Source: Dioscorea cayenensis subsp. rotundata
Taxonomy: Eukaryota; Streptophyta; Magnoliopsida; Dioscoreales; Dioscoreaceae
DNA: 64,000 nucleotides
Reading direction: 5' to 3'
Assembly: GCF_009730915.1 (NCBI RefSeq)
Contig: NW_024087181.1
Coordinates: 1-64,000, forward strand
Shown here: piece after piece, positions 2,150 through 51,630 of the stretch
Layout of the letters: each line of letters opens with the position of its first letter
Position numbering within the stretch: the first letter of the stretch is position 1
Notes under the pieces: model-generated
Told to the model about the DNA's origin: nothing
The model's input: only the letters and a program-made list of their open reading frames with translations
Databases searched by the model: none
Made by a program: the position numbers and the translations under genes

Positions 2150-3615
2150 TTGGGCTTTTTCTCAAATTGAACCTAACTTTTTTTAATATTGTCAAAATGA
2201 CACTAGGGTCATTTTTAAGGCCATCACATCAATGCCCAGTCAGCACCTATGCGCTAATTGGGTTGCTAACTGGACATTTTTAAATTAAAAAAATCTTTTT
2301 TTTTATATTTTAACCTCTCATCTTTTCTATAATTATTTAAATAACTTATTTGCGGCCTTTTTAACCCCAATTTTTTTTAAAAAAATTGTTATTAAAATAG
2401 AAAATATTATTTGAAATTAGAATTATTATTATTAAAACAGTAATTATTTTAAATTATTTTAATAATATTTTTATTATTATTAGAGTGGTAATTATTGAAG
2501 TGGGAATTATTTTAAAATTATTTTTATTATTATTAGAAAAATATTATTATTATAATGGGAATTATTTTAAATTATTTTAGTGATGAAATCATGTCCAGGT
2601 CATGACTTTGATTTGAGCGCGCTCGGGTGATCAAGTTATTGAGAGGCGGCATTATTGGGGAGGGGGGGTGTTAGTTCGGGCGACGGTGGCATCCTTGGCA
2701 TCACATAAAACCCCACCACATCACTTGGCATCACATAAAACCCTCTCAGATCAAGTTTTGTCGAGCAGACAAAATCGGGTGCCATAGGGACAAGTGCCGC
2801 CACCGCAAGTGTGCACCACTCAGTCCCTTGGCAAGGTCCGAGTGGCTCACCGAGAGCCATATGGAGATTCCATTGCCTTGCACGCCATGTCTCGAACGAT
2901 ATCGTGTGGCCCTCAGTGCATCTAAGCAAAAGAACATCGGCGCGCTGCAGCGGATGACAAAGCACCGTTTGGGCCTACTCTTGTGTCAAAATATTATTAA
3001 AATAATTTTATATAATTATTGTTTTACTTCCTCCGTTCATTTTTACTTGTCACATTTACCTAATTCATATCGATTAAGAAAAGTTGGTTAAAGTTAATTG
3101 GTTACCTAAAATTTATAAAAAATTTCATTACTTTCCAAAACTATTCATATTTAAAACTCCACTAGTGGAGAATATAATTTAATACTTAGTTGATTGTGAT
3201 TTATTGAAAATTGTACAAGTACATTAAATTAAATGATAAATTTGGAAAAACTTATTTAATGCTGCATAAAATTTATCATGTGACAAATAAAAAAGAACAG
3301 AGAAAAGCTCCAAAACGTAACAACTAAAAAAGAACAAAGGGAGTAATAATTAATAATAATAATTCTAATTTCAAATAATGTTTCTTATGCTAATAATAAT
3401 TTTTTTAAAAAAAATTAGGTTAAAAATACTACAAATAAGTTATTTAAATAATTATAAAAGAGATAAAGAGTTAAAATATAAAAAAAATATATATGATTTT
3501 TTAAATTTAAAAATGCCCAATCAGCACTTGGGTACTGACTGAGCATTAATGTGATGGCTCTAGGGTCATTTTGGCAATATTAAAAAAAGTTGGGGCCAAT
3601 TTGGGAAAAAGTCCA
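2150..3615. mobile_element. Non-autonomous DNA transposon with long terminal inverted repeats
   Basis: The two ends are inverted copies of each other over roughly 250 bases. The left arm starts near GGGCTTTTTCTCAAATTG (2152). The right arm, read in reverse complement from about 3612, starts GGACTTTTTCCCAAATTG. The arms stay colinear through the GTCATTTT, TGCCCAGTCAGCAC and TTATTTAAATAACTTATTTG segments. The middle (about 2600-2990) is distinctly GC-richer than its surroundings and may be captured gene sequence; it gives short open frames on both strands, none recognisable. Long TIRs with a captured interior suggest a Mutator-like (Pack-MULE) element, but I could not find a clean 9-bp target duplication. 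The right part from 2903 recurs at 32571-33300, where the left arm is missing. Confidence 0.6.
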
Positions 3616-5120
3616 AACAATTTCCAAGGTTTCAACACATTGGAGAAAGGTTAGCTACCATTGAAAGAAGTTGCAAATTTAATGCTTGAATATTCCTCAT
3701 TTTTGAAAATTTTTCTTAAGTTGTTTACTTTTTCTAGACTTGGGAAATGCCCAAATTTTTTTGAATGTTCCCCATGTTTGAAAATTCCTATAAAAATTAT
3801 TTACTTTCTTTGGGCTTGGAAAATGCCCAATTTTATTACATCTAATAACATCTACTTTAGTTTAAGGAATTGTTGTAGGCAAATGCCAAATTTTATTGCA
3901 CCCAAGAATATCCACCTCAGTTTAAAGAAAAAGTTGTAAATGTGTTGTAATGGGGTTAAAACTCCGAAATTAGAAATGGTTGATTTTTTTTTTTTGAAGA
4001 ATTCTTTTGTAAATAACACTGTTTACATTTGAATTAACCCGATTTTAATTTTAATTTAATTATTTTGATAATATGGACAAATTACGACCAACCATTGCGT
4101 TGGAAGAGAGTTGAACCTTCGGCATTTAACTTTAAAAAAAATGGACTACCACTCTTTTATTATAAGGGTGGTCAATTTTTATCACTCATCTCTAAATATT
4201 ACAAGCCAAAGGGTTCATAACCCAATGGTATTAGTCCCACTATAAAAGGCGGTTGGTGTAGGACATTCATAAAGTCTTGAGTTCAAATATTGCTGGAAAA
4301 AATGGTAACAAATCTCTGGTTGTGGTTGCAGGCCTGTAACTCGCACACCATGGATCACCCGGTGAGGCTGCATGGGCTATATATTCAATTCCAGGCCCAT
4401 GTGTTGCGAATCAAAACATAAAGTTCTTGCGAACTTTTTTTCCCTACTTTCACTCTCTTTCATTCTCATTCTCATAGCAGATCACCAATGTAAGCGGAAA
4501 AATATCAAAGACAAAAAAAGAGAGAGGGCTACATCCAAACCTTTGTTTTATTGTAAACCAATGTAACTCTGTTAGATATTTTTAAAAATTATTTGAGCTA
4601 ATCTATAACTACTATTTTCAAAAATATGGCTTAAGAACTCAAGCCTGTATTAACCTGAACATATGTTTTGGAAAAGGCTGCACATGAATTATAACATAAT
4701 AATACACATTTCATCAAACAATTATTTTTATAACTCATAACAAAAACAAATGATTAATGTTAATATTGGCTTGCATCTTCCAAACAACAACAATGGTACA
4801 ACAAAGTAACAGTTTAAAAACATGCGAAGAAGAATGACAACAAACAATGAGCACCAAACTAATCAGAAAAGAACACAAGTATTTGTCTAAGTAATTCATT
4901 TCAATGTCTACAAAGTTGTTCAGATAAAGGTTTTTAGTGTACATCAGATGTATTTGAAGAGTAAAAACGGGATATTCACTATAATGCACATTATAACAAT
5001 GCCTAGGGAGAAAAAGAAAAGATACTGCTGTACATGTAGCTGAAGAAATGGCTGTCTATGATCCATGTTCAAATTGCAACAGATAAGCAAAACCAAAAAA
5101 ATATACGGCCCCAAGCTCCC
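3616..5120. other. Non-coding stretch downstream of the A1 DEK-like gene
   Basis: No convincing exon was found apart from the SINE-like insertion annotated separately. The sequence is colinear with 33300-34810 in A2 and, more distantly, with 46600-48000 in D. Short open frames here (for example near 3661-3939 and 4372-4566) lack family features and are poorly conserved in D, so they are not called. Confidence 0.5.
4206..4401 (+). mobile_element. SINE-like insertion with an empty site in unit D
   Basis: Unit D (about 47283-47305) reads straight through CTAAATGTTGCAAATCAAAACAT. Units A1 and A2 instead carry about 195 extra bases between AATATTACAAG and GTTGCGAATCAAAACAT, leaving an imperfect duplication of roughly 9 bases (TATTACAA / TGTTGCGAA). 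The insert begins with tRNA-like sequence: a box-A-like segment in GGGTTCATAACCCAATGG and a box-B-like GAGTTCAAATA about 65 bases later. That layout fits a tRNA-derived plant SINE. The 3' end lacks an obvious poly(A), so the class is tentative. The insertion itself is well supported. Confidence 0.5.
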
Positions 5121-5124
5121 GTCA

Positions 5125-5315
5125 CTAAAAGTAACAGTGCATTTGGTGCACGTTAGATATTGTTGCAGTCAGGCTTATAGAAGAAATGTACAAGTTACAA
5201 GCTCTGAGTTTTTGTCCAGGATATTCAGCATCATAATGTATCTTGGTTACTGCCTCTTTGATTGTGTTCACTATCTCATCCTTTCTATCTGACAGATATA
5301 TAACAAAGTGTGCAC
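5125..5315 (-). other. Possible DEK C-terminal (DEK_C-like) exon of unit A1
   Basis: After a good acceptor (AACATGCAG at 5316-5324) the minus strand stays open for 62 codons to a TAG at 5125-5127. The first residues include YLSDRKDEIVNTIKEAV, which resembles the last helix of plant DEK_C domains (typically DLTERKDFIKTTVKE, from memory). It lies downstream of the DEK-like gene in the correct order and orientation. Sequence at 6106-6160 also has a DEK-like basic linker (KSKVFAKKK) ending at a donor GTAAATAG, but it is out of frame and follows an in-frame TGA, so I cannot link it cleanly to the main reading frame. Unit A2 has the same exon (about 34813-35003); D has a decayed version near 48200. 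Confidence 0.35.
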
Positions 5316-6166
5316 CTGCATGTTCAAATTTCAGCTAGTGAATTTCAGTAATGTACCACAATTACATTAATTGAATCAAAGGAATTGAAATCAATCTTGG
5401 TACAATATTGCATTGTAATTATGAGTTTATAGGCCACGTACTCAGTTGTGCAGGAAAACAGACCCCTCAAAAACTTACCTGCACTTAAAACAGTTGATCA
5501 ATTAGTTAGGAAATACAAATTGAAGGGAAGAAGAGAAACCTTTAGTTTGTGTGAAATCTATTTCTATTGCAAACTTGATTTACTGAAGATGCATTTGTTC
5601 AAACACAAGGCATACTAGAAAAACTAAAATGCATTTGTTCACCTGAAGATGCATGGTCAGAGTTTGAGAATACAAGGCATAATAGAAGGAACAAACAGGT
5701 TAATTTTTGTAGTTCAAACACACAAAAATGTCAAAACAAATACAATTCATTTCTAAAGATTTCGATGGTGATTAATCATGAACAATAGCTTGCATAGATA
5801 GTAAATGTTTAACATTCTGCGTGTGTACTGAAATGCCTGAAAGGAGTGATGCCTGATAGTTCTCAACATGAAGGGTTAAACAAGATATTAATATAATGAT
5901 TGTTTCATTCTAAACAATTGAAGGGAAATTATACTTCAAATTGAGATGCTATTACAACCATGAATATAGAATTTCATAAGAATGGGTCAACCATGAACCA
6001 AAATTAAACTTTAGCAAACCTTGATTAGAAGCACTTTTCCCAAAATGAAAGTCACAAGAGAAATTCTTCTACCATATTCTGATCTACAAACAAGAAACTA
6101 TTTACCTTTTTCTTTGCAAAAACCTTAGATTTGGAGCTAGCTCCTTTTTCTCAGTCTGAATTCTTC

Positions 6167-9165
6167 TCAACCATCATCTTCCTCATCTACATTGGATATA
6201 AGAAGGATTATCATCACCATTGCCATCGCCATCACCATCACTATCACTATCACTATCACTATCACTATCACTATCACTATCACTATCACTATCGTTATCA
6301 CTGTCACTATCATTGTCATCAGATGCATCATTTGCCTCAACAGCCACATACTGATCATATTTTCATTATTATTGTCATCATCAACTGCATTATTTATCGC
6401 AGCAGGCTCATTGCCACCAGGTTTATGTATCATCTGAAGAACTGCATTCTCATCCATGCCATTGACAGCAGGGAACTCATTGCCACCAATTTCTTCTATC
6501 ATCTGCAGAATTGGATTCTCATCCATATCATTCACAGCAGGTAACACACTGCCACCAAGTTCATCTTCCATCTCTAGAATTGCATTCTCATTCATGCCAC
6601 TGCCAGCAGGTAAATCAACCATCTCAGTAACACTCCCCTGATCAGAATCATCTGTTGTCTCAGCAGGCACTTCATCGCCACCACTATCATCGGCATTAGA
6701 ACCATTTGATGAACCATTTGGTTCAGCAGGTACACTCTCATTACTGTCGGCAGCATCATCACCTTCACCTAAATCTTTTGTTTCAGATGACACTCTCTCA
6801 TCACCATCACCATCATCACCATCATATGCATCTTTTATCCCAGTTGGCACGCTCTCATCATTGTCGTCATCACTATCATAATCATCATCAGATGAACTTT
6901 TTGACTCCGGTGACTTACTCTTCTCCTCATCATCCTTTTCCTCCTCCTCCCCACCATCATGATCATCAGCATTTTCCTCCTCATTCTCTTCCCACTCATC
7001 ATCATCGTCATCATCATCCTTTTCGTCCCCATCCTCTTCCTCCTCATCATATTCCTCCTCCACCTCATCATCATCATTATCACCAACCTGTTTGACCAAA
7101 ATAATGATATGCTTGTTAAGAAGTTATTTCGGAGACTTTGATGAGCATGCACTCCAATTTCTATATGTTGGCGAAGTCAAGGAAATTTCTGTTTTCAGGA
7201 ATTCAAACTTTTTTAGATAAACAGGCAAATTCATATGAATTTCAGTACCTCATCGCCTTTTGAACATGTTTCACCAGATGATGACTGACCAATGGCTTCT
7301 GTTCTCTTGGGATTTGTTACTTCCTGAAATAAAACTGACTCTAAATTATGCCAGAAGATGATATGTCCAAACTGTGTGTGCAAGTTAATTTCAACAAATA
7401 TAGCAAAGTTATAGTAGGAATAAGACCTCTTCTTCATCAAGTTGAGCGTTCCTAAAATCATGGGGACTTTTTAAAAATGTAATCAACTCTTGTGATATTT
7501 CTTTCTGTAAGTGCGGTGCAAGTCGACTCATAAACCTTCATAGTTCATATTTAGAATGAGGAAAATCTTAAAAGAGAGTTTCTAATTAAGCAACCTTAGT
7601 GTTTTCAGCTGTCACATTTCTTATACCAAGCAAGTTACAAATATCCAACAACTGATATTTTTTATATTTAGCAACTTGTCTCTGCAACTTCTTCTCCTTT
7701 CTTTCCTACAAAGAGAAATTTGATCAGCATGTAAACAAGCTATCAAAAACAAGGCATTAAGCGCTACACAGAGATTCTGAACCACAGATCTTGGTTCACA
7801 TATGAATAAAACCAGAAATGAATTTATTACGCAAAACATCATGCCAAAAAATCAAAACTAGCACCACAAATAGGAAGAAAAATTACCTCCTCCTGAGGAC
7901 CCCATAAAAATCCAGGGAATCGCAGTATATTTCTCTTCAGATCTTTGTTCTGAATAGAAATAATTCCATTGATCAATACAAACTTGAACAAAATTAAGCA
8001 ACAACTATACAAGAAACGCATTCATAAAAGAAACTCTACCTTCACCTTTACCCCATAAAGAATAACATGAAAATATTGAAGATCAGCATCAATGTCTCTC
8101 TTTCTCAAATTTGAAGACACTAACAACAATATGAACAACATCAAGCCATAAAAGTCGAATCATTTTGCAAATATTCAAACTATTATGAATCATACATTCC
8201 ATGAAAACAAAAAAAGAGAGTAACATGAAACAGCATCAGTCTTTCTCTTTTTCATATTTAAAGACACTAAAGAATTCGACATTATGAACAAACATTCAGG
8301 GTATAAAAAATCAAATCATCTTACCAATGTTCAATCTACTAAAAATTATACACTCTGCAAAAAGATAAAAAGAGAGTGACGTGAAAAAGATCGAAGATCA
8401 GCATCAGGCCTTCTCTTTTTCAAATTTCAAGACACTAAATGTTAGAGGACTAGTATATACATACACTATACTTTGTATCTTACTGTTTATACATACTAAC
8501 TACTTCTACTACTCTTGTATTTATACACATTGTATCTATTTATTGGCCTCTTGCCTTAATGAAAGCAAGCCCATTCTTATCAACATCTAACACTAAAGAA
8601 TTAAAAAAATTAAGAACGAACATCAGGGCATAAACAAGCACATCATTTTGCTAATATTCAAACTACCAAGAATCATACACTCCATGAAAAGATGAAAAAA
8701 GAGTAACATGAACAGATCAAAGGTCAGCATCAATCTTTCCTTTTTTGCAAATTTAAAGACACTAAAGAAATCAACAATTAAGAACGAACATCAGGGCATA
8801 AACAATCACATAATTTTGCTAATATTCAAACCACCATGAATCATACAACCAGGAATTAAAAGATAAAAAGAATCCATCAATGTACCATTCTTGATATCCC
8901 GCAGCTTAATTCCGTTGCCCTAAAACCACAAGAAAGATTCCAATTTCAATAGAAAACCATATAACAAGAAACCATAAGCGATTCCGATAGAAAAAAAAAA
9001 ACATCAAGAACCCTAATTTACCTCCGGGATGCGCAAAGACCTCTTCTTTTGTAACTCCGCCGGTCCGTAGAAATGGACGGGTTTTCGATTTCGCTTTGGC
9101 CTACCCAGCGCGAGTGCGTTGTTCTCTTCAAGGTTCTGGTCTCCTTCGCTGGACATCTCCACCAT
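6167..9165 (-). CDS. DEK domain-containing chromatin-associated protein, variant with internal 23-residue repeats (unit A1)
   Basis: Eight exons on the minus strand splice in frame with GT-AG borders: 9022-9165, 8886-8919, 8040-8119, 7887-7949, 7595-7705, 7427-7504, 7249-7323 and 6167-7087, about 501 residues. DEK proteins bind DNA and histones and shape chromatin. Supporting features are a basic start (GRPKRNRKPV, residues 21-30), the DEK/SAP-like core with NGIKLRDIKNV, LQYFHVILYG, NKDLKRNILRFPGFLW (from residue 87) and LLDICNLLGI (about 126), then KEISQELITFLKSPHD. Exon 8 is a long Asp/Glu tract followed by three 23-residue repeats (359-427). The end is odd: a shift near 6345 moves an Asp-Ser run into a hydrophobic Ile-Val frame, so the native C terminus is probably lost. 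Met1 (9165) or Met4 (9156) may start; the Met4 position is also the ATG of unit B. It is the only one of five copies without a stop or frameshift in exons 1-7. Confidence 0.75.
6231..6300. repeat. Hexanucleotide TCACTA microsatellite in DEK exon 8
   Basis: A run of TCACTA units lies in the acidic exon. In A2 the same place (about 35922-35970) has fewer units plus interruptions. In one minus-strand frame it encodes Asp-Ser repeats; in the frame left open after the upstream shift it encodes Ile-Val. The length difference between two nearly identical duplicates shows recent slippage. Confidence 0.85.
6392..6598 (-). repeat. Coding 69-bp minisatellite, three units (A1)
   Basis: Three head-to-tail 69-base units encode 23-residue repeats of the form DMDENAILQMIEELGG followed by NELPAVN, with changes such as GMNENAILEMEDELGG. 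The array is in frame with the DEK-like protein. Unit A2 has the same three copies (36063-36269), D has four (48446-48721), and B and C have about two interrupted by an insertion. Each unit looks like an acidic amphipathic helix closed by Gly-Gly. Confidence 0.85.
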
Positions 9166-13458: not shown

Positions 13459-15358
13459 ATGTCCAACAAAGGAGACCAGAATCTTGAAGATAACGAAGCA
13501 CTCGCGCTGGGTAGGCCAAAGCGAAGGAGAAAACCCGTCGATCGTTATCGAACGGAGGATTTCCGGGAGAAGAAGAAGAAGAAGCTCCTTCACATCCCGG
13601 AGGTAAATTAGGGTTCTTGATTTTTTCTTTTCTGTCTGAATCGCTTATGGTTATCTTGTTATATGGTTCTCTATTGAAATTGGAACCTTTCTTGTGGTTT
13701 TTTAGGGCAAAGGAATTAAGCTGAGGGGCATCAAGAAGGGTACATTGATCTTTGTGGATTAATTCTTTTTATCTTTTAATTCCTGGATGTATGATTCATG
13801 GTGGTTTGAATATTAGCAAAATGATGTGATTTTTTATGCCCTGATGTTCGTTCTTAATTGTTGAATTCTTTAGTGTCTTTAAATTTGAAAAGGAGAAAGA
13901 CTGAAGATGATCTTTGATCTTTTCACGTTACTCTCTTTTAATCGTTTCACAAAGTTGATGATTCTTGGTAGTTTGAATATTAGCAAAAAGATTTGATTTT
14001 TTATGCCCTGATGTTTGTTCATAATGTCGAATTCTTTAGTGTCTTGAAATTTGAAAAAGAGAAAGATTGATGCTATTTCATGTTACTCTCTTTTTATCTT
14101 TTCACAGAATGTATGATTCATAATAGTTTTTATATTTGCAAAATGGTTCTGATTTTTCTTGGCTTGATGTTGTTCATATTGTTGAATTCTTTAGAGTCTT
14201 TAAATTTGAAAAAATGAAAGATTGATGCTGATCTTTGATCTTTTCAAACTATTATTCAAAATGATTCGATTTTTTATGCCTTGATGTTGTTCATATCGTT
14301 GAATTCTTTATAGTGTCTTCAAATTTGAGAAAGAGAGAGATTGATGCTTACTTGAAAACGTTTTAAAAAATGTAATCAACTTTTTTGAGATCTCTTTCAT
14401 GGGATAAAGGCCAAGGTAGAGTTTCTTGTGTGATGAGTTTCTTGTAAAGCTCTCACTTAATTTTGTTCAAGTTTGTATTAATCAATGGAATTATTTCTCT
14501 TTAGGACAAAGATCTAAAGCGAAATATATTGAATTTCTCTGGGTTTTTGTGGAGTCTTCAAGAGATGGTAATTTTCCTTCCTATTTGTGGTGATAATTTC
14601 AATTTTCTGACATGATGTTTAGGGTTGTAAATATATCTCTGATGTTATTCATATGTGAAATAAAGTTCTTTGGTTCAGAATCTCTGTGTAACACTTAATA
14701 GCTTGTTTGAAATGAGAAATGTGAAAGCTGAAAACACCAAGGTTGCGTAATTAGGACTGTGAAGATTAGGCGATGGGTTACCTGTTGTCAATGATATGGA
14801 TGAGAATGCAGTTCTGCAGATGCTAGAAGAACTTGGTGGCAATGAGTTATCTGCTGTCAATGACATGGATGAGAAAATGCAATTCTTCAGATGTTTGAGG
14901 TATTGGCTTATCCTGCACCAAGTAATTGTTGAAGTGCCACAGATGATCTGGGGAATACCAGGTTGGAAGGTGATGCAAATCTTGGAAGGCAAGCTGGAGC
15001 CTCTAAATCTGAGGATTTCACCATTATTTGTTGCCTTGTAAAACTATGAAAACATAGAAATAGTCAAGCTATTTTTGTATAGTAGTATGAGGCAGATTAT
15101 GGCCTTCTTGTCTTTGACTTCTCTATATATATATTGTAATGTTCTCCTGTAAAAGATGTACTGAAAAAATTATTGAATAAATAAAACAAGGGAGGGAGGG
15201 AATTGTGGGAGTCTGGTGTTCTTATGGTGCTTCTCTAAATTTCTTTTTGCAAATATGAAGAACTTGGTGGCAATGAGCCTGCTGAGATAAATAATGCAGC
15301 TATGATGACAACAACAATGAAAATATTGAATGTGGCAATTGAAATAGATTTGACACAA
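13459..15358 (+). pseudogene. DEK-like pseudogene, unit B
   Basis: Exon 1 (13459-13602) is intact: ATG, then LGRPKRRRKPVDRYR and a run of Lys, with donor GAG|GTAAAT. Exon 2 is 13706-13739. Exon 3 (14314-14415) is broken: after REIDAYLKTF comes a stop, because 14353-14400 is an inverted piece of exon 6. Exon 4 (about 14503-14565; DKDLKRNILNFSGFLW) and the end of exon 5 (about 14720-14735) are recognisable, but exons 6-7 and the acidic tract are deleted. The 69-bp repeats resume at 14778. A 2-base insertion (GAGAAAATGC against GAGAATGC in C) shifts the frame, and a foreign segment (about 14892-15257) splits the array before the last repeat. It stands head to head with A1. Confidence 0.8.
14892..15257 (+). 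mobile_element. Foreign segment inserted in the DEK repeat array (B copy)
   Basis: Between two 69-bp repeat units lies about 365 bases that are not DEK sequence and also occur in unit C (about 25529-25850, reverse orientation). It includes GGAATACCAGGTTGGAAGG, a TATATA stretch and TTGAATAAATAAAACAAG, which looks like a plant polyadenylation region. A retroposed mRNA 3' end or a small transposon are both possible. One frame reads SATDDLGNTRLEGDANL and continues to FTIICCL, which I do not recognise. Confidence 0.5.
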
Positions 15359-19796: not shown

Positions 19797-22700
19797 ATGG
19801 AGTCCTTGATAACAATCACTACTGACATTGTCAAGCATGCATGGTCCCCCATTAGCCGCCACTTGGGTTACCTTATTTGTTACACAAGCAAGATTGAGAA
19901 GTTGGAGAGCATATTTAATAAACTAGATGATCTTCAGAAGGATGTCCAGGAAAGGGTTAACGCAGCGAGGCGTGAAAGACTTGAAGAGGCCACGAGAGAA
20001 GTTCGAACTTGGTTGTGTAATGTGAACAATATGAAAGGAGAGGTACAGAAAATCAAACTTGAAGCTAGTAGTACTCTGACCTCCAATAATTGCTTTCAAC
20101 ACATAAAACTGCGCTATAAACTTGGAAGAGAGGCTGCTCATCATATAAAAAACACTGATGATCTTATAATAGAAGGCAAGTTTGATAGTGTGTCTCACAA
20201 GCGGCCACCCCCAAGCACTACCGATTCACTGTTGTATAATGAAGATTTCGTGATTTTCGATTCAAGGAAGTCACGTGTGAAGAAAATACTTGAAGCTCTG
20301 AAGGATGATGCTGTGCACTCAATTGGGCTTTGGGGCATGGGAGGAGTGGGAAAGACGATGTTAGTTAAAGACGTCGCGAAGCAAGCCAAAGAGCAGAGCT
20401 TGTTTGGTGAGGTGATGATGGTGACTGTATCACAAAACATTGATCTAAAGAGAATTCAAACTGTCATGGCAGAGAGTTTGGGTTTGCATCTCAGCGATGA
20501 AAGTGTAGAAGTAAGAGCTGTCAAGCTTGCAGACAAATTAGAAACGACAGATAACAAAGTATTGGTGATATTAGATGATTTATGGGAGACGTTGGATCTG
20601 TCAATGGTTCGGATTCCACGTTCACTGATGGGTACAACTTGCAAAGTGGTGATCACAACAAGAAACAAAAATGTCTGTGGAGGAATGAAGTGCCGAGAGA
20701 TAATTGAGTTGAAGACATTGTCAGATGAAGAATCTTGGATTCTATTCAAGAATAGAGCAGGGGATGCAGTGGAGTCCCCCACAATAAGGAAATTGGCACA
20801 GAAAGTGGCCAAAGAGTGCGCTGGTCTGCCTCTAGCACTGGTGGTTCTTGGCACAACACTTAAGGATAAGAGCTCCTTGACTTGGGACACAGTGTTGAAT
20901 CAGCTAAAAGGGTCAAAGGAGGTGTATCTCCAAGGTGTGAGTAAACAAGTTTATCAATCCATAAAACTAAGTTTCGATTTCTTAGAGATTGAGGCAGCCA
21001 AGTCTTGCTTCTTGCACTGTTGTGTCTACCCTGAAGATTGGGAAATTCCTAAAGAAGAACTAATGCATATGATGGCCGGAGGGGGCCTCTTAGCTGATGT
21101 TGAAACTCTAAATGAAGCACAGAGCAGAGTGGATCTACTGCTTGACCAGCTAAAAGCTTGTGGTTTGCTTCTTCAAGGTAGGGATGAACGCTATGTAAGA
21201 ATGCATGATGTTGTTAGGGATGTGGCGATACATATCGGTGATGTGGCAGATCATGCTTTCTATACAAGAGCTGGGCAAGGCTTGACAGGGTGGCCAAGAA
21301 CTACTGAAAGTGACATGCGAAATTGCCGACGGCTTTCACTGATGCACAATGATATTGAAGATCTTCCTCCTGATCCAATGCAGTATCCAAAACTTGAAAT
21401 GATGATCCTGAGCTTCAATCGGAGGTTAATAAGCATCCCAGAAATGTTCTTCCTACACATGGGATCCCTGATGATTCTTGACTTAAGTTGTACAGACATT
21501 AAATCACTGCCAAAATCATTCTCTTATCTCACTAATCTCAGAATATTGAACCTGAGTGGTTGTCGTTCTCTGAAAGATATTTCTCACATTAATGGGTTGA
21601 AGATGCTTGAAATACTTATTTTGGTTGGTTGTCCAGTGTCCATTGTTCCAGAAGCTGTAGGATGCGCACAAAGTCTGAGATTTCTTAATTTGAGTTTAGT
21701 GGCTCCAGTTTCATCTTGCCTTGATATTTTTTTTTCCAAGGAATTGCCAAGATTTCACAGGCTAGAACAATTGTTCATGGTCAAGTTTGCAGGTAGCTTT
21801 CAAGAGTTGATAAGCTTGAGGCATCTAACACATCTATTCATCACAAAAGTGGTGGACTTGGATGATTCCTTATCACATGAACTAGTCTTACCAGATTCTT
21901 GGCCTGATCGACTTCTAAAATTTAGTCTTTGTTTTGTCGAAGGTCTGCCAATGAATTTTTTTTTTGGACAAAAATCTAGAGCGCTGAGACTGATGGGAAC
22001 CAAGCCCTTGGCTGTTTGGGTCAAGAAATTACTTGAAAAAACAAGACAGTTGGCATTAGTAGAATTCCAAAAAACTGAATTGATTTCCATCAACAGCGAT
22101 ATCCCGCCGCTTGTGTTCTCAAGTTTGGAGTCTCTTGACATTATGAGCTGGCCAAAGTTGACCAAGTTGTTGGACGATGAGTTATCATTGCAGGAAGAAA
22201 TCCCCCTCAGCCAACTCCAACACATGATCATCAGCAATTGTCCTGGGTTGACCAATTTAATACCATCAAGGTTTTATCAGCGGAGTATGCTGCCAGGGCT
22301 AAGGGATCTCCAATTATCTCTCCTACAGAGTCTACATAATGTATTACAACCATTCCAATGCCTACCAAACTTGACGACCTTGTACATCGATAAATGTGGA
22401 GTGAGATATGTAGTTTCATCTGAGATGGAGACAGTGGCAATATTGGCTGATCCTTTTCCAGCACTAGATAATCTTGAGATCAACAATTGCAAAGAGATGA
22501 TTGAGATGATCTCTCCCCCTGCTTCTTTGCAAGTCCGGTGCTTCTTCCAGAGACTTAGACAACTCCAAATCTATTCATGTCCAAGACTAAAGCATCTTTT
22601 CACCTACGAGCAGGCAATAGGCATGCAACATTTGAAAAAGCTTGATATCAGATATTGTGCTGCGTTAGAGGCTGTGGTGATTTCCACGGAAAATAAAGAG

Positions 22701-23312
22701 GAAGCATCTTCAAGTACACATGTTGCTGATCATGAATCTTATAATAGCCCTTTCCCTAATTTGACAGACCTCAAACTGAATAATTTGCCTCAACTCACTG
22801 CCTTCCATCACCCCACACCACCGCCCGTGGAGTGGTTACACCTTCAAAGCTACTCCATACGCAAATGCCCAAAACTACAGGAGCCTTTGGAAGAACGAGT
22901 TCAATCACTATGGTAAGAGCATCATCATCCCCTCTCATCTCAATCTTTGCTAAAATTCCATCTATTCATCTGATTTCCTCCTGCATTTAGATCGTAATTA
23001 GTTACAAATTTGTGTGACAAATATCCTAGTTTTAACCATTTTCTATCTTGATTTATGAAATCTTGTGTTGCTTTCATTATATTCTAATGTGTATTTTGAT
23101 GTACAATAATTGCTAATGTTGTCTCTTTTTTTTCTAATGTATCTTTCATTTTATACTTTCATATTCAACACTTAATGGGAAGTACATAAGACAATTATTA
23201 ATCATAAAATTTGTATCAAGCAATAATTTGATATTGAATGTCTTCTGGTTCACGTAGGGCTAGGATGAACGAGGGAGAGGATTCAGAGGAAGAGGATTCA
23301 GATGATTTGTAA
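19797..23312 (+). CDS. CC-NB-LRR disease resistance protein (RPS2/RPS5-like CNL)
   Basis: An intracellular immune receptor of about 1056 residues. Exon 1 (19797-22912) encodes nearly everything. An N-terminal coiled-coil region has the W-type motif (VRTWLCNVNNMKGEVQ, about 69-84) of RPS2/RPS5-type CNLs. The NB-ARC domain shows the P-loop GMGGVGKT (180-187), RNBS-A VTVSQ, Walker B KVLVILDDLW (254-263), RNBS-B KVVITTR (283-289), CAGLPLAL (341-348), RNBS-D CFLHCCVYPED (404-414) and MHD (469-471). Irregular LRRs start near 500, with the later repeats in the CPxL style of this class. The open frame appears to end LW-stop at 22916, but that TAA lies inside a perfect donor TG|GTAAGA. Joining to the acceptor CACGTAG at 23257 keeps the frame and adds exon 2 (23258-23312), an acidic tail ending SEEEDSDDL. 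No disabling mutation is seen. Confidence 0.9.
20334..20357 (+). promoter_or_regulatory. Candidate miR482/2118 target site over the P-loop codons
   Basis: The codons for GMGGVGKT read GGCATGGGAGGAGTGGGAAA followed by GACG. The miR482/2118 family of seed plants is known to pair with NLR mRNAs exactly at this P-loop sequence and to trigger phased siRNAs. The site fits the general pattern; no microRNA gene is visible here, so targeting is an inference. Confidence 0.4.
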
Positions 23313-25459: not shown

Positions 25460-27014
25460 TTCATTATTGTTGTCATCATCAGCTGCATTATTTATCTCAG
25501 CAGGCTCATTGCCACAAAGTTCTTCATATTTGCAAAAAAGAAATTTAAAGGAAGCACCATAAGAACACCAGACTCCCTCAATTCCCTCCCTCCCTTGTTT
25601 TATTTATTCAATAATTTTTTTTCAGTACATCTTTTACAAGAGAATATTACAATATATATATATATATATATAGAAGTCAAAGACAAGAAGGCTATAATCT
25701 GCCTCATACTACTATCCAAAAACAAGCTTGACTATTTCTATGTTTGCATAGTTTTACAAGGCAACAAATAATGGTGAAATCCTCAGGTTTAGAAGCTCCA
25801 GCTTGCCTTCCAGGATTTGCATCACCTTCCAACCTGGTATTCCCCGGATCATCTGAAGAATTGCATTCTCATCCATGTCATTGACAGCAGGTAACTCATT
25901 GCCACCAAGTTCTTCTAGCATCTGCAGAACTGCATTCTCATCCATATCATTGACAACAGATAACTCACTGTCAACAGGTAAATCAACCATCTGAATAACA
26001 CTCATCTGATCAGAAAATCAAAACTATCACCACAAATAGGAAGAAAAATTACCTCCTCTTGAGGACCCCGTAAAAAACCAGAGAATCACAGTATATTTCT
26101 TTTCAGATCTTTGTTCTGAAGAGAAATAATTCCATTGATCAATACAAACTTGAACAAAATTAAGCAACAATTTTACAGGAAACACAATCATAAAAGAAAC
26201 TCTACCTTCACCTTTACCCCAGAAAGAATAGCATGAAAATTTTTCAGAACAGCATCAATCTCTCTCTTTCTCAAATTTGAAGACACTAAAGAAGTCAACA
26301 ATATGAACAACATCAAGCCAAGAAAAATCAAAACCATTTTGCAAATATTCAAACTATTATGAATCATACATTCCGTAAAAAGATAAAAAGAGAGTAACAT
26401 GAAAAAGCATCAGTCTCTCTTTTTCAAATTTCAAGACACTAAAGAATTCAACATTATGAACAAATTAACATCAGGGCATAAAAAATCAAATCTTTTTGCT
26501 AATATTCAAACTACCAAGAATCATCAACTTTGTGAAATGATTAAAAGAGAGTAACGTGAAAAGATCAAACTTCAATTTTTCTCCTTTTCTAATTTAAAGA
26601 TACTAAAGAATTCAACAATTAAGAACAAACATCAGCGCATAAACAAGCAGATCATTTTGCTAATATTCAAAATACCATGCATGAATCATACATCCACGAA
26701 TTAAAAGATAAAAAGAATTCACAAAGATCAAAGTACCCTTCTTGATGTCCCTCAGCTTAATTCCTTTGCCCTAAAAAACCACAAGAAAGGCTCCAATTTC
26801 AATATTAAAGAACCATATAACAAGAAAACCATTAGCGATTCAGATAGAAAAGAAAACATCAAGAACCCTAATTTACCTCCGGGATGTGAAGGGGCTTCTT
26901 CTTCTCCCGGAAATCCTCCGTTCGATGACAATCGACGGGTTTTCTCCTTCGCTTTGGCCTACCTAGCGCGAGTGCTACGTTATCTTCAAGATTCTGGTCT
27001 CCTTCGTTGGAAAT
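25460..27014 (-). pseudogene. DEK-like pseudogene, unit C
   Basis: Exon 1 (26877-27014) has lost its start: the codon matching the ATG of unit B is ATT (27012-27014). The rest of exon 1 still reads ALGRPKRRRKPVD. Exon 2 is 26737-26770 and exon 3 is 26206-26285 (LRKREIDAVLKNFHAILSG), uninterrupted. Exon 4 (26053-26115) has CGA changed to TGA within NKDLKRNIL. The sequence then jumps from the intron after exon 4 straight into exon 8 near 26013, at CTGATCAGAAAATC, deleting exons 5-7 and the acidic tract. About two 69-bp repeats remain (25850-25960) before the same foreign segment as in unit B (about 25529-25850). Several independent lesions make it non-functional. Confidence 0.8.
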
Positions 27015-32223: not shown

Positions 32224-32570
32224 CCTAGGGGTGTAAATGATACACCTCTACTCGCAAGCTACTTGGGCTCTACTCGATAAAAACTCAAACTCGGCTCGGT
32301 CACAGTCGAGCTGAGCTCGAGCTCGAGTAGCTCGAGTAGTCGAGCGAGCCGAGTTCGAGTATTGTGATACTTGGCTCGAGTGCTCGCGAGCCTAATCGAG
32401 CATGTATGTATATATATAATATTAGATTTGGGAAAAACTTTCGAGCTCAAGCTCGAGCATAATGTTTATGGTTAGTTTCAACTTTTTCGAGCTTAATCGA
32501 GCGAGCTCAAGTAGCTCGATTTGTGTACCAAGTCGAGCTCGAGCTATAGAATGAATACTCGATCGAGCTG
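32224..32570. mobile_element. CTCGAG-rich palindromic element, truncated on the right
   Basis: The stretch starts TAGGGGTGTAAATGATAC and is packed with GAGCTCGAGCTCGAG-type self-complementary words. This style is common in plant non-autonomous hAT-like elements. It ends where copy A2 of the segmental duplication begins (CGTGTGGCCC at 32571), so it replaces the left half of the long-TIR transposon present in A1. No terminal repeat or target duplication could be matched. Confidence 0.4.
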
Positions 32571-33891
32571 CGTGTGGCCCTCAATGCATCTAAGCAAAAG
32601 AACACCGGCGCGCTGCAGCGAATGACAGAGCACCGTTTGGGCCTACTCTTGTGTCAAAATATTATTAAAATAATTTTATATAATTATTGTTTTACTTCCT
32701 CCGTTCATTTTTACTTGTCACATTTATCTAATTCATACCGATTAAGAAAAAGTTGATTAAAGTTAGTTGGTTACCTAAAATTTATAAAAAATTCCATTAC
32801 TTTCCAAAACTATTCCTATTTAAAACTCCACCAGTGGAGTATATAATTTAATACTTAGTTGATTGTGATTTATTAAAAATTGTACAAGTACATTAAATTA
32901 AAGGATAAATTTGAAAAAAATTATTTAATGCTGCACAAAATTTCTCATGTGACAAATAAAAAAGAACAGAGAAAAGCTCCAAAACGTAACAACTAAAAAA
33001 GAACATAGGGAGTAATAATTAATAATAATAATTCTAATTTCAAATAATGTTCCTTATTTTAATAATTATTTTTTTAAAAAAATTAGGTTAAAAATACTAC
33101 AAATAAGTTATTTAAATAATTATAAAAGAGATAAGGAGTTAAAATATAAAAAAAAAATATGATTTTTTTAATTTAAAAATGCCCAGTCAGCACCTAGGTA
33201 TTGACTGGGCATTAATGTGATGAGTGATGACTCTAGGGTCATTTTGACAATATTAAAAAAAATTGGGGCCAATTTGGGAAAAAACCCAAACAATTTCCAA
33301 GGTTTCAACACATTGGAGAAAGGTTAGCTACCATTGAAAGAAGTTGCAAATTTAATGCTTGAATATTCCTCATTTTTGAAAATTTTTCTTAAGTTGTTTA
33401 CTTTTTTCTAGACTTGGGAAATGCCCAAATTTATTTGAATGTTCCCCATGTTTGAAAATTCCTATAAAAATTATTTACTTTCTCTGGGCTTGGAAAATGC
33501 CCAATTTTATTACATCTAATAACATTGACTTTAGTCTAAGGAATTGTTGTAGGCAAATGCCAAATTTTATTGCACCTAAGAATATCCACCTCAGTTTAAA
33601 GAATTGTTAAAAAGTTGTAAATGTGTTGTAATGGGGTTAAAACTAGGGAAATTAGAAATGGTTGATTTTTTTTTTTTTTTGAAGAATTCTTTTGTAAATA
33701 ACACTGTTTACATGTGAATTAACCTGATTTTAATTTTAATTTAATTATTTTGATAATATAGACAAGTTACGACCAAACATTGTGTTGGAAGAGAGTTGAA
33801 CCTTCGGCATTTAACTTAAGAAAAAAATGGACTACCACTCTTTTATTATTAGGGTGGTCAATTTTTATTACTCATCTCTAAATATTACAAG

Positions 33892-34086
33892 CCAAAGGGT
33901 TCATAACCCAATGGTATTAGCCCCACTATAAAAGGCGGTTGGTGTAGGACATTCATAAAGTCTTGAGTTCAAATATTGCTGGAAGCAATGATAACAAATC
34001 TCTGGTTGTGGTTGCAAGCCTGTAACTCGCACCACGGATCACCCGGTGAGGTTGCATGGGCTATATATTCAATTCCAGGCCCATGT
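33892..34086 (+). mobile_element. SINE-like insertion, A2 copy
   Basis: Same insertion and same site as 4206-4401, so it predates the A1/A2 duplication but postdates the split from unit D, which has the empty site. Confidence 0.5.
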
Positions 34087-36062
34087 GTTACGAATCAAAA
34101 CATAAAGTTCTTGTGAACTTTTTTTCCCTACTTTCACTCTCTTTCATTCTCATTCTCATAGCAGATCACCAATGTAAGTGGAAAAATATCAAAGACAAAA
34201 GAAAAAAAGAAAAAAAAAAGGGCTACATCCAAACCTTTGTTTTATTGTAAACCAATGTAACTCTGTTAGATATTTTAAAATTATTTGAGCTAATCTATAA
34301 CTACTATTTCAAAATATGGCTTAAGAACTCAAGCCTGTATTAACCTGAACATATGTTTTGGAAAAGGCTGCACATGAATTATAACATAATAATACACATT
34401 TCATCAAACAATTATTTTATAACTCATAACAAAACAAATGATTAATGTTAATATTGGCTTGCATCTTCCAAACAACAACAATGGTACAACAAAGTAACAG
34501 TTTAAAAAAACATGCGAAGAAGAATGATAACAAACAATGAGCACCAAACTAATCAGAAAGAACACAAGTATTTGTCTAAGTAATTCATTTCAATGTCTAC
34601 AAAGTTGTTCAGATAAAGGTTTTAGTGTACATCAGATGTATTTGAAGAGTAAAACGGGATATTCACTATAATGCACATTATAACAATGCCTAGGGCAGAA
34701 AAAGAAAAGATACTGCTGTACATGTAGCTGAAGAAATGGCTGTCTATGATCCATGTTCAAATTGCAACAGATAAGCAAAACCAAAAAAATATACGGCCCC
34801 AAGCTCCCGTCACTAAAAGTAACAGTGCATTTGGTGCACGTTAGATATTGTTGCAGTCAGGCTTATAGAAGAAATGTACAAGTTACAAGCTCTGAGTTTT
34901 TGTCCAGGATATTCAGCATCATAATGTATCTTGGTTACTGCCTCTTTGATTGTGTTCACTATCTCATCCTTTCTATCTGACAGATATATAACAAAGTGTG
35001 CACCTGCATGTTCAAATTTCAGCTAGTGAATTTCAGTAATGTACCACAATTACATTAATTGAATCAAAGGAATTGAAATCAATCTTGGTACAATATTGCA
35101 TTGTAATTATGAGTTTATAGGCCACGTACTCAGTTGTGCAGGAAAAAAAAACAGACCCCTCAAAACTTACCTGCAATTTAAACAGTTGATCAATTAGTTA
35201 GGAAATACAAATTGAAGGGAAGAAGAGAAACCTTTAGTTTGTGTGAAATCTATTTCTATTGCAAACTTGATTTACTGAAGATGCATTTGTTCAAACACAA
35301 GGCATACTAGAAAAATTAAAATGCATTTGTTCACCTGAAGATGCATGGTTAGATTTTGAGAATACAAGGCATAATAGAAGGAACAAACAGGTTAATTTTT
35401 GTAGTTCAAACACACAAATGTCAAACAAATACAATTCATTTTTAAAGATTTCTATGGTGATTAATCATGAACAATGGCTTGCATAAATAGTAAATGGTTA
35501 ACATTCTGCATGTGTACTGAAATGGCTGAAAGGAGAGGTGCCTGATAGTTCTCAGCATGAAGGGTTAAACAAGATATTAATATAATGATTGTTTCATTCT
35601 AAACAATTGAAGGGAAATTATACTTCAAATTGAGATGCTATTACAACCATGAATATAGAATTTCATAAGAATGGGTCAACCATGAACCAAAATTAAACTT
35701 TAGCAAACCTTGATTAGAAGCACTTTTCCCAAAATGAAAGTCACAAGAGAAATTCTTCTACCATATTCTGATCTACAAACAAGAAACTATTTACCTTTTT
35801 CTTTGCAAAAACCTTAGATTTGGAGCTAGCTCCTTTTTCTCAGTCTGAATTCTTCTCAACCATCATCTTCCTCATCTACATTGGATATAAGAAGGATTAT
35901 CATCACCATTGCCATCGCCATCACCATCACTATCACTATCGCTATCACTATCACTATCACTATCGTTATCACTGTCACTATCATTGTCATCAGATGCATC
36001 ATTTGCCTCAACAGCCACATACTGATCATATTTTCATTATTATTGTCATCATCAACTGCATT

Positions 36063-36269
36063 ATTTATCGCAGCAGGCTCATTGCCACCAGGTTTATGTA
36101 TCATCTGAAGAACTGCATTCTCATCCATGCCATTGACAGCAGGGAACTCATTGCCACCAATTTCTTCTATCATCTGCAGAATTGGATTCTCATCCATATC
36201 ATTCACAGCAGGTAACACACTGCCACCAAGTTCATCTTCCATCTCTAGAATTGCATTCTCATTCATGCC
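36063..36269 (-). repeat. Coding 69-bp minisatellite, three units (A2)
   Basis: Same three units as in A1, essentially unchanged. Confidence 0.85.
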
Positions 36270-36294
36270 ACTGCCAGCAGGTAAATCAACCATC

Positions 36295-38669
36295 TCAGTA
36301 ACACTCCTGATCAGAATCATCTGTTGTCTCAGCAGGCACTTCATCGCCACCACTATCATCGGCATTAGAACCATTTGATGAACCATTTGGTTCAGCAGGT
36401 ACACTCTCATTACTGTCGGCAGCATCATCACCTTCACCTAAATCTTTTGTTTCAGATGACACTCTCTCATCACCATCACCATCATCACCATCATATGCAT
36501 CTTTTATCCCAGTTGGCACGCTCTCATCATTGTCGTCATCACTATCATAATCATCATCAGATGAACTTTTTGACTCCGGTGACTTACTCTTCTCCTCATC
36601 ATCCTTTTCCTCCTCCCCACCATCATGATCATCAGCATTTTCCTCCTCATTCTCTTCCCACTCATCATCATCGTCATCATCATCCTTTTCGTCCCCATCC
36701 TCTTCCTCCTCATCATATTCCTCCTCCACCTCATCATCATCATCACCAACCTGTTTGACCAAAATAATGATATGCTTGTTAAGAAGTTATTTCGGAGACT
36801 TTGATGAACATGCACTCCAATTTCTATATGTTGGTGAAGTCAAGGAAATTTCTGTTATCAGGAATTCAAACTTTTTTAGATAAACAGGCAAATTCATATG
36901 AATTTCAGTACCTCATCTCCTTTTGAAGATGTTTCACCAGATGATGACTGACCAACCGCTTCTGTTCTCTTGGGATTCGTTACTTCCTGAAATAAAACTG
37001 ACTCTAAATTATGCCAGAAGATGATACGTCTAAACTGTGTGTGCAAGTTAATTTCAACAAGTATAGCAAAGTTATAGTAGGAATAAGACCTCTTCTTCAT
37101 CAAGTTGAGCGTTCCTAAAATCATGGGGACTTTTTAAAAATGTAATCAACTCTTGTGAGATTTCTTTCTGTAAGTGCGGTGCAAGTTGACTCGTAAACCT
37201 TCATAGTTCATATTTAGAATGAGGAAAGTCTTAAAAGAGAGTTTCTAATTAAGCAACCTTAGTGTTTTCAGCTGTCACATTTCTTATACCAAGCAAGTTA
37301 CAAATATCCAACAACTGATATTTTTTATATTTAGCAACTTTTCTCTGCAACTTCTCCTTTCTTTCCTACAAAGAGAAATTTGATCAGCATGTAAACAAGC
37401 TATCAAAAACAAGGCATTAAGCGCTACACAGAGATTCTGAACCACAGATCTTGGTTCACATATGAATAACACCAGAAATGAATTTATTACGCAAAACATC
37501 ATGCCAGAAAATCAAAACTAGCACCACAAATAGGAAGAAAAATTACCTCCTCCTGAGGACCCCATAAAAATCCAGAGAATCGCAGTATATTTCTCTTCAG
37601 ATCTTTGTTCTGAATAGAAATAATTCCATTGATCAATACAAACTTGAACAAAATTAAGCAACAACTATACAAGAAACTCATTCATAAAAGCAACTCTACC
37701 TTCACCTTTACCCCATAAAGAATAACATGAAGATATCGAAGATCATCATCAATGTCTCTCTTTCTCAAATTTGAAGACACTAACAACAATATGAACAACA
37801 TCAAGCCATAAAAGTCGAATCATTTTGCAAATATTCAAACTATTATGAATCATAAATTTCATGAAAAGATAAAAAGAGTAACATGAAACAACATCAGTCT
37901 TTCTCTTTTTCATATTTAAAGACACTAAAGAATTCGACATTATGAACAAACATCAGGGTATAAAAAATCAAATCATCTTACCAATGTTCAATCTACTAAA
38001 AATTATACACTCCGCAAAAAGATAAAAAGAGAGTGACGTGAAAAAGATCAAAGATCAGCATCAGGCCTTCTCTTTTTCAAATTTCAAAACACAAAAGAAT
38101 TAAAAAAAATTAAGAATGAACATCAGGGCATAAACAATCACATCATTTTGCTAATATTCAAACTACCAAGAATCATACACTCCATGAAAAGATAAAAAAA
38201 GAGTAACATGAACAGATCAAAGATCAGCATCAATCTTTCCTTTTTTTCAAATTTAAAGACACTAAAGAAATCAACAATTAAGAACGAACATCAGGGCATA
38301 AACAATCACATAATTTTGCTAATATTCAAACCACCATGAATCATACAACCAGGAATTAAAAGATAAAAAGAATCCACAAGATCAATGTACCCTTCTTGAT
38401 ATCCCGCAGCTTAATTCCGTTGCCCTAAAACCACAAGAAGGATTCCAATTTCAATAGAAAACCATATAACAAGAAACCATAAGCGATTCCGATAGAAAAA
38501 AAAAAACATCAAGAACCCTAATTTACCTCGGGATGCGCAAAGACCTCTTCTTTCGGAACTCCGCCGGTCCGTAGAAATGGACGGGTTTTCGCTTTCGCTT
38601 TGGCCTACCCAGCGCGAGTGCTTTGTTCTCTTCAAGGTTCTGGTCTCCCTCGCTGGACATCTCCACCAT
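36295..38669 (-). pseudogene. DEK-like gene, unit A2, with two frameshifts
   Basis: The exon structure equals A1: 38527-38669, 38391-38424, 37700-37779, 37547-37609, 37258-37365, 37090-37167, 36912-36986 and exon 8 from 36750. Two small deletions separate it from A1. One base is lost at the end of exon 1 (ATTTACCTCGGG here, ATTTACCTCCGGG in A1), leaving 143 instead of 144 coding bases. Two bases are lost in exon 8 near 36308 (ACACTCCTGATC here, ACACTCCCCTGATC in A1), which stops the acidic tract early, after DDSDQ, before the 69-bp repeats. Exon 5 is one codon shorter than in A1. Core motifs (KRKRKPV, NKDLKRNILRFSGFLW) are intact, so inactivation looks recent. If the assembly is wrong at these two places, the gene could be functional. 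Confidence 0.75.
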
Positions 38670-47440: not shown

Positions 47441-48445
47441 AGCGCTACACTAAAGCTGGCAACCAAACATAACTCTACATACTATTTGTCAAATGAACTT
47501 ATCTATCATTCCAATATCAAAATATCCCCTAAGAACTCAAGCCTGCAATAACCTAAGCATATGTTTTAGACAAGAAAGCTGGCACACAAATTATAATACA
47601 CTTCATCAGACAACTTTTTTTATAACTCATTACAAAATAAATAACTAGTGTTAACCTTGGCATCCATCTTCCACAGAACAACAATGGTACAACAAACTGA
47701 ACAAAGGTACAACAAATTAACAGTATTCAAATAAAAAATGCACAAGAGAGAAAGCAAACTCTGAGCACCAAACTAATCAGAAAGAATACAAGTATTTGTT
47801 TGAGCAATTCATTTCAACGTCTACAAGAAATAGTTGCTTAGATAAAGGTCTTAGTGTACATCAGATGTACTTGAAGGGTAAAACTGAATAGTCACAATAA
47901 TGCACATTAATATAACAAATCCTAGGGTGCAAAAAAGATGCTAATGTACATGTAACTGAAGAAATGGATATCTATGATCCATTCTCCAATTGTAACAGAT
48001 ATGCAAAACCAAAAAATATACAGCCCCAAGCTCACATCACTAAAAGTAATGGTGCAATTGGTGCACGTTAGATATTGTTGCATTCAGGCCAATATAAGAA
48101 ATGTACAAGTTACAGATTCTGAGTCTTTGTACAGGATATTCAGCATCATAATGTAATTGGTTACTATCTCTTTGATGCTGTTCCCTATCTCATGCTATCT
48201 ATCAGATATACAACAAAGTGTGCACCTGCATGTTAAAATTTCAGAGAGTAAAATTTAGTAATGTAACACAATGATATTAATTGAATCATAGGAATTGAAA
48301 TCAATTTTGGTACAATATTGCAATGTAATTATGAGTTTATAGGCCACATACTCAATTGTGCAGGAAAAAGGAAAAACAACCCTCACAAGTTACCTGCAAT
48401 TTGAGCAGTCAATCAGTTAGTTACAAAACACAAATTAGCAGCATT

Positions 48446-48721
48446 ATTTATCTCAGCAGGCTCATTGCCACCAAGTCCTTCTATCATCTGAAGAATTACA
48501 TTCTCTTCCATGCCATATACAGCAGGTAACTCATTGCCACCAAGTTCTTCTGTCATCTGAAGAATTGCATTCTCATCCATGTCACTGACAGTAGATAACT
48601 CATTGCCACAAATTTCTTCTATCATCTGCAGCACTGCATTCTCATCCATATCATTCACAGCAGTTAACACATTGCCACCAAGTTCATCTATCATCACAAG
48701 AAATGCATTCTCATCCATGTC
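48446..48721 (-). repeat. Coding 69-bp minisatellite, four units (D)
   Basis: Four 23-residue units (DMDENAFLVMIDELGG, DMDENAVLQMIEEICG, DMDENAILQMTEELGG, GMEENVILQMIEGLGG cores). All four remain in one open frame although the gene is broken upstream. One unit more than in A1/A2. Confidence 0.85.
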
Positions 48722-48971
48722 ATTGTCAACAGGTAAATCAACCATCTGAGTAACACTCGCCTGACAAGAATCATCTGTTGTCTCAGCAGGCACTTCATCA
48801 CCACCACTATCATTGGCATTAGAACCATTTGGTTCAGCAGGTACACTCTCATTACTGTTGTCAGCTTCATCACCTTCACCTACATCTTTTGTTTCAGATG
48901 ACTCTCTCAACACCATCACCATCATATTCATCTTTTATCTCAGTTGGCACACACTCATTGTTGTCGTCATC

Positions 48972-50730: not shown

Positions 50731-51630
50731 CTTGAAGATCAGCATCAGTCTTCCTCTTTTCCAAATTTTAAGACGCTGAAGAATTCAACAATTAAGAACG
50801 AACATCAGGGCATAAAAATCAAATCGTTTTGCCAATATTCAAACTACTAATAATCATACACTCAGCAAAAAGATAAAAAGAGAGTAACATGAAAAGATCA
50901 AAGAACAGCATCAGTCTTTCTCTTATTCAAATTTAAAGACACTAAAGAATTCGACATTATGAACAAACATCAGGGCACAAAAAATCTAATCATTTTGCTA
51001 ATGTTCAAACTACCAAGAATCATACATTCCATGAATAGATAAAGACAGAGTAAAATGAACCCATCGAAGAATAGCATCAGCCTTTCCCTTTTTCAAATTT
51101 AAAGACACTAAAGAATTCAACATTATGAACAAACATCAGGGCATAAAAAATCATATCATTTTGCTAATATTCAAACTACTAAGAATCATACACTTTGCTA
51201 ATGTTCAAACTACCAAGAATCATACACTCCATGAAAAGATAAAAAGATCAAGATCAGCATCAGTCTTTCTCTTTTTCAAGTTAAGAACGAGCATCAGGGC
51301 ATAAACAATCACATCATTTTGCTTAAATTCAAACTACCATGAATCATACATCGAGGAATTAAAAGATAAAAAGAATTAATCCACAAAGATCAATGTACCC
51401 TTCTTGATGTCCCTCAGCTTAATTCCTTTGCCCTAAAAAACCACAAGAAAGGTTCCAATTTCAATAGAGAACCATATAAAAAGAAACCATAAGCGATTTC
51501 GATAGAAAAGAAAACATCAAGAACCCTAATTTACCTCCGGGATGCACAGGGTCCTCTTCTTCCGGAACTCCTCGATCCGGTCTGTAATAATCGACAGGTT
51601 TTGGATTTCTCTTTGGCCTGCACTTGCTGC

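Follow-up and report, generated by a model that had tools for sequence, protein, structure and literature searches.

A probably young, nearly neutral coding minisatellite in a family of truncated DEK-like genes of yam

Coding minisatellites whose period is a multiple of three consist of in-frame tandem units that vary in number, and the array described here is of the same kind. To our knowledge, no such minisatellite is known in a DEK gene. In the portions of the published accounts used here, the DEK genes of cotton comprise 11 exons, or 12 in one case, and encode proteins of 360-642 aa (PMC9176258), and two accounts of plant DEK proteins make no mention of an array of this type (PMC12712427; PMC9176258). 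The absence of such an array from canonical plant DEK proteins, which had been asserted in the initial annotation of the window (i.e., positions 1-64000 of contig 786, a 64,595-bp contig in a genome of 584.2 Mb), was borne out at two canonical DEK loci of yam, C15:23.15 Mb and C8:21.96 Mb, whose acidic and linker exons lack the 69-bp array. A stretch of the yam storage protein dioscorin matches the genome at 90-91% identity, in keeping with a Dioscorea plant. The DEK-like family of the window has the acidic exon of these two genes and of those of cotton and Arabidopsis, as well as remnants of their basic linker and final DEK_C exon, and its copy A shares with plant DEK proteins the DEK N-terminal domain, recognized by way of human DEK. 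Unlike the canonical genes, however, copy A has 8 exons, carries the 69-bp array, and has neither linker nor DEK_C in frame. We consider the array to be probably a young, nearly neutral coding minisatellite within a family of truncated DEK paralogues of yam, where "young" and "lineage-specific" would describe the pattern as read from one genome.

TRF detected a 69-bp period (23 aa) in copies A, B, C, and D of the window (Table 1), and translation of the minus strand of copy A in the frame of its acidic exon gave the three units GMNENAILEMEDELGGSVLPAVN, DMDENPILQMIEEIGGNEFPAVN, and GMDENAVLQMIHKPGGNEPAAIN, a single unit reading approximately DMDENAILQMIEELGGNELPAVN. The agreement between the TRF period and the in-frame translation indicated that the tandem 69-bp units reported in the acidic exon are real, and TRF returned the unit numbers originally given for the four copies (three, three, four, and about two, interrupted). 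It had also been pointed out that array length stays a multiple of three. The unit period is indeed 69 bp; however, since that period is itself 3 x 23 by construction, an in-frame array length is no argument for selection. The frame flanking the array is lost in copy B through a 2-bp deletion in the acidic exon, and copies A, B, and G29 (a copy at C10:22234267) have in common a 1-bp deletion just 3' of the array, as compared to five copies (G24-G28) that continue as ENIDQ. At two places the array itself is broken: the first unit is one base short at C10:22054018 (read by eye), and a stop lies inside the array at C10:22304990. Exon 8 of copy A also contains older degenerate repeats of ~57-69 bp, which include VPT/VPA/LPA/FPA/EPA motifs spaced 19-39 residues apart as well as 57-nt repeats.

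Table 1. Positions, within the 64-kb window, of the arrays, exons, and insertion of the DEK-like copies.
Feature	Position	Strand	Description	Basis
Copy A, exons 1-7	7249..9165	-	9165-9022, 8919-8886, 8119-8040, 7949-7887, 7705-7595, 7504-7427, 7323-7249; 195 open codons, DEK N-terminal domain	
Copy A, exon 8	6167..7087	-	Acidic tract, older degenerate repeats, array, frame-shifted Ile-Val tail; stop at 6167	
Copy A, probable vestigial last exon	5140..5315	-	3' of the exon 8 stop; homologous to the second half of DEK_C, canonical yam DEK genes	
Copy A, array	6386..6617	-	3 units of 69 bp (23 aa), within exon 8	TRF (6407-6617, 3.1 copies, 79% match, score 268), translation, alignments
Copy B, array	36058..36288	-	3 units, identical to copy A; exon frame broken by the 2-bp deletion 5' of the array	TRF (36078-36288, values same as copy A)
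Copy C, array	48441..48724	-	~4 units; upstream stops and frame-breaking indels; exon 1 start missing	TRF (48461-48724, 3.8 copies)
Copy D, array (D-type)	25850..25999	-	~2 units; next unit cut by insertion	TRF (25850-25999, 2.2 copies)
Copy D, ~0.37-kb insertion in last array unit	25470..25846	-	Common to D-type copies on C10 and C6	
Copy E, array fragment	14793..14876	+	Fifth DEK-like remnant, inverted	
Intron 2 tandem array	8120-8885, 37892-38347, 50735-51194, 26251-26677	-		
Intron 2 tandem array	13787-14229	+		

Copy A is gene-like, with 8 exons, the junctions of which were checked, and a predicted product of 501 aa, of which 195 codons fall in exons 1-7 and 306 in exon 8. Its proposed DEK-type identity was confirmed by phmmer, which aligned residues 46-158 with human DEK (2jx3; E=4.6e-6) and thereby placed the DEK N-terminal pseudo-SAP/SAP domain in the predicted protein; residues 1-441 gave no Pfam match. 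Since 2jx3 comprises the N-terminal domain only, human DEK is uninformative on the array. The acidic tract is present and is not followed in frame by a basic linker in copy A, where GASSKSKVFAKKK, which resembles the linker, is out of frame; such a sequence follows a stop or is read in a different frame in A, B, and G27. Likewise, DEK_C survives as its second half only, in a separate exon behind a stop, and does not form part of the predicted copy A protein. None of 2000 shuffles scored as high as this exon against the canonical last DEK_C exon, and the idea that the last exon is a new domain was ruled out, since it corresponds to the second half of DEK_C. Of 19 genomic DEK_C matches at E<=1, which include other kinds of DEK_C protein, none fell in contig 786 or in the array clusters. 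At 6167-6394, the deletion that follows the array in A, B, and G29 turns a (GATAGT)n tract from Asp-Ser to Ile-Val, which amounts to 38 residues in A. Intron 2 of the DEK-like copies contains a second tandem array, with a period of ~155-170 bp (TRF; read by eye), whose units resemble exon 3 in decayed form, AG acceptor included.

To judge from exons 1-7, which we examined in 17 copies or part-copies (some covered in part, low-scoring exon matches being dropped), only A and G29 are whole, i.e., have splice signals, no stop, and no frame-breaking indel. G29 has ~6.4 kb inserted in intron 6; its exon 1 aligns without gaps and is open, and it lacks the first ATG of A, the next in-frame ATG being common to both. 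G16 resembles G29 in exons 1-6, and its exon 7 was not found within the next 6.6 kb. In copy B, besides the deletion 5' of the array, 1 bp is missing from the end of exon 1. Copies C, G24, G25, G26, G14, and G30 are interrupted by stops in at least two exons or by frame-breaking indels. The stops of G33 and G06 are confined to the exon 3 match, and that match may be a decayed copy of exon 3 from the intron 2 array. Exon 7 is missing from G27 and G28, as is part of exon 1, the match to G43 lies mainly in exons 6-7, and D and E are fragments, with exons 5-7 and most of the acidic exon not found in D. Copies A and B have 5.6 kb in common at 96% identity, as a direct duplication (2891-8439 and 32558-38096). 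Substitutions between them numbered 0 in the acidic part (448 bp), 0 in the array (246 bp), 1 in the next 252 bp, and 0 in the last exon, whereas their introns differ by 1-5% (introns 7 and 8, 1.9%). Since exon 8 is nearly identical while the introns differ to this extent, A and B are not independent, and patchy gene conversion between them is perhaps the cause.

The array was also sought genome-wide by a protein search, in which the best 32 candidates were scored at a threshold of E<=10. Results showed that it occurs at no fewer than 24 places (29 match rows), i.e., 5 on C786, 13 on C10, and 6 on C6, and among the matches listed those on C10 span 22.00-22.43 Mb and those on C6 span 3.57-4.13 Mb. 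Matches to the DEK exons were present in each of these three regions, and the listed array places were confined to them. Copies of the D type have a common internal deletion and the ~0.37-kb insert. The insert was found on C18 and C19 as well, where no array appeared among the matches listed, and it is possibly a mobile element.

Comparison of the arrays of A and G29 revealed 5 synonymous and 11 non-synonymous changes (ratio 0.53, P = 0.33) and no indel in 246 bp, and the overall difference of 5.7% was similar to that of the introns taken together (6.7%; P = 0.68). Ratios for A against G27, G24, C, G25, and D were 0.91-2.78, none of them significantly below 1, and as point values the ratios were 0.88-2.78 for A against the 10 copies outside its lineage and, where defined, 0.50-0.77 for pairs among C and G24-G28. 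Considering these last values and the ratio of 0.53 between A and G29, the array may be under weak constraint or may have been constrained in the past. Between units of the same array (18 unit pairs in five copies: A, G29, C, G25, and G27), dN/dS was 0.84 over whole units and 0.92 over the core, defined as the first 18 codons; selection on a helix core, for which the initial annotation had proposed this comparison as a check, was therefore not supported. We also scored the LQMIEELGG core in eight copies (A, G29, C, G24, G25, G27, D, and C6a, with one unit each in D and C6a and without the cut first unit of G27). The score was 6.67/9 in A and G29 as compared to 7.25-8.0 in the six others, against a consensus that was our own choice and leans away from A, since the A lineage contributes least to it. 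The cores of A read LEMEDELGG, LQMIEEIGG, and LQMIHKPGG, the last with a proline, and G29 differs in LEMKDELGG alone. The initial annotation had pointed to retention of the core even in copy D, whose upstream exons are dead. However, other dead copies retain the core as well, while in A and G29 it is decayed rather than better kept. D-type copies on C6, which are without most of the gene, retain LQMLEELGG, so that its survival in D is explicable by recency, and we rejected the core of copy D as evidence of selection. Since the array is without a clear sign of functional retention, it is probably an ordinary expansion of the acidic spacer, and its most likely role would be that of a tolerated, disordered, acidic spacer.

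It could be argued instead that each unit, as a short amphipathic helix of acidic character (DENAILQMIEEL), binds a histone, a co-activator, or some other partner, with the array raising affinity, and that the truncated DEK would either form a scaffold bound to DNA or compete with full DEK. Helical moments are consistent with such a helix in the consensus core (0.51, matched or exceeded by 180 of 5000 shuffles) and in unit 2 of copy A (0.43; 230 of 5000), and the strongly acidic surroundings, the intact frames of A and G29 with their indel-free array, and the lower ratios among C and G24-G28 point the same way. However, the moments of units 1 and 3 of copy A, 0.22 and 0.34, were reached in 2151 and 801 of 5000 shuffles, unit 3 has a proline in both intact copies, and the between-unit core ratio within A and G29 is 1.19. 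Searches with the repeat produced no significant match in Pfam (best, FYRC at E=0.074 and Arm_3 at E=0.62) or in the PDB (best, E=0.36 with one sequence and 0.13 with a profile). Considering this evidence together, we regard a binding module as improbable. Weak matches to short families were obtained in PHROGs (best E=0.00079, labelled hydrolase, 4 of 8 members) and, since the repeat is acidic, were taken as chance; the array was accordingly rejected as a member of a known repeat family.

At the other extreme, the entire family might now be dead, A and G29 included, their open frames being left by an ancestor that worked until recently. In all nine copies followed (L023-L031), the frame of exon 8 ends shortly after the array, although splicing there is still possible, and the last DEK_C exon (pN 0.112 and pS 0.081 between A and G27) changes without constraint. 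The Ile-Val tail, with 4 synonymous and 14 non-synonymous changes between A and G29, shows no sign of constraint. In addition, the non-synonymous rate in exons 1-7 of this pair is not below that of the introns (4.9% vs. 6.7%, P = 0.20; P = 0.64 without intron 2). On the other hand, exons 1-7 and exon 8 up to the array are free of stops in both copies, and no frame-breaking indel separates them in 1287 coding bp, as compared to 30 in 2083 intron bp. Indels were a multiple of three in 3 of 3 cases in the coding part and in 5 of 35 in the introns, and even when the repeat-rich intron 2, which accounts for 21 of those 35, was excluded, 12 frame-breaking indels remained in 1514 bp (chance of none in the coding part, 0.0006). 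In exons 1-7, dN/dS between A and G29 was 0.32 (17 synonymous and 22 non-synonymous changes; Fisher P = 0.0008), and for all coding sequence up to the end of the array the ratio was 0.40 (P = 0.0004). In exons 1-7 it is the high level of synonymous change (14.4% vs. 6.7% in the introns; P = 0.005) that lowers the ratio and, since the non-synonymous rate is not below that of the introns, the argument for purifying selection on A and G29 draws mainly on the indels. The ratios of other pairs in the N-terminal part were mostly 0.5-1.2, with extremes of 0.26 and 3.18, and certain pairs of broken copies gave 0.29-0.42. We conclude that constraint on the reading frames of A and G29 is probable, that these two copies may be alive, and that a wholly dead family is unlikely. 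We are very doubtful that yam uses a DEK paralogue without linker and DEK_C, in which the acidic tract has become a repeat-bearing tail with an Ile-Val end in the A/G29 lineage. If it did, the protein would join a DEK domain for DNA binding to a new effector end, might compete with normal DEK, and would be encoded among disease-resistance genes.

If the array is a nearly neutral minisatellite, as we prefer to think, a 69-bp stretch of the acidic exon would have been multiplied by slippage or unequal exchange. Since 69 is a multiple of three, gain or loss of units would leave the frame intact and hence be tolerated. Segmental duplications, some of which would have carried NBS-LRR genes along, would have taken the family to contig 786, to C10 at 22.0-22.4 Mb, and to C6 at 3.6-4.1 Mb, after which most copies would have broken. 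A and G29 would still be gene-like, combining a DNA-binding N-terminal domain of DEK type with an extended acidic region, three eroded units, and a new tail, and their predicted product would be without the basic linker and DEK_C. The family illustrates how an in-frame coding minisatellite can seem conserved even though most of its carriers are broken gene copies. Where unit length is divisible by three, little can be concluded about function from an in-frame array or from retention of its core. Our searches of the literature on DEK in Dioscorea yielded no description of truncated DEK-like genes clustered near NBS-LRR genes, as they are in this yam, where two copies may still work.

The NBS-LRR gene of the window (19797-22916, plus strand) is a 1039-aa ORF with an NB-ARC match at E=4.4e-45 and RPS2-like LRR matches. 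Its nearest relative, at 93%, lies on C10, ~5 kb from a D-type copy, and the ORF gave 22 genome match rows including itself, many of them on C15. Within C10:22.00-22.43 Mb the DEK-like copies occur in near-identical pairs, some of them direct and ~0.39 Mb apart and some inverted, which would represent segmental duplication or unmerged haplotypes; contig 786 may be another haplotype of the C10 cluster or a paralogous block. Elsewhere in the window, at 57699-58878, TRF reported periods of 30, 61, and 92 bp within one complex tandem array.
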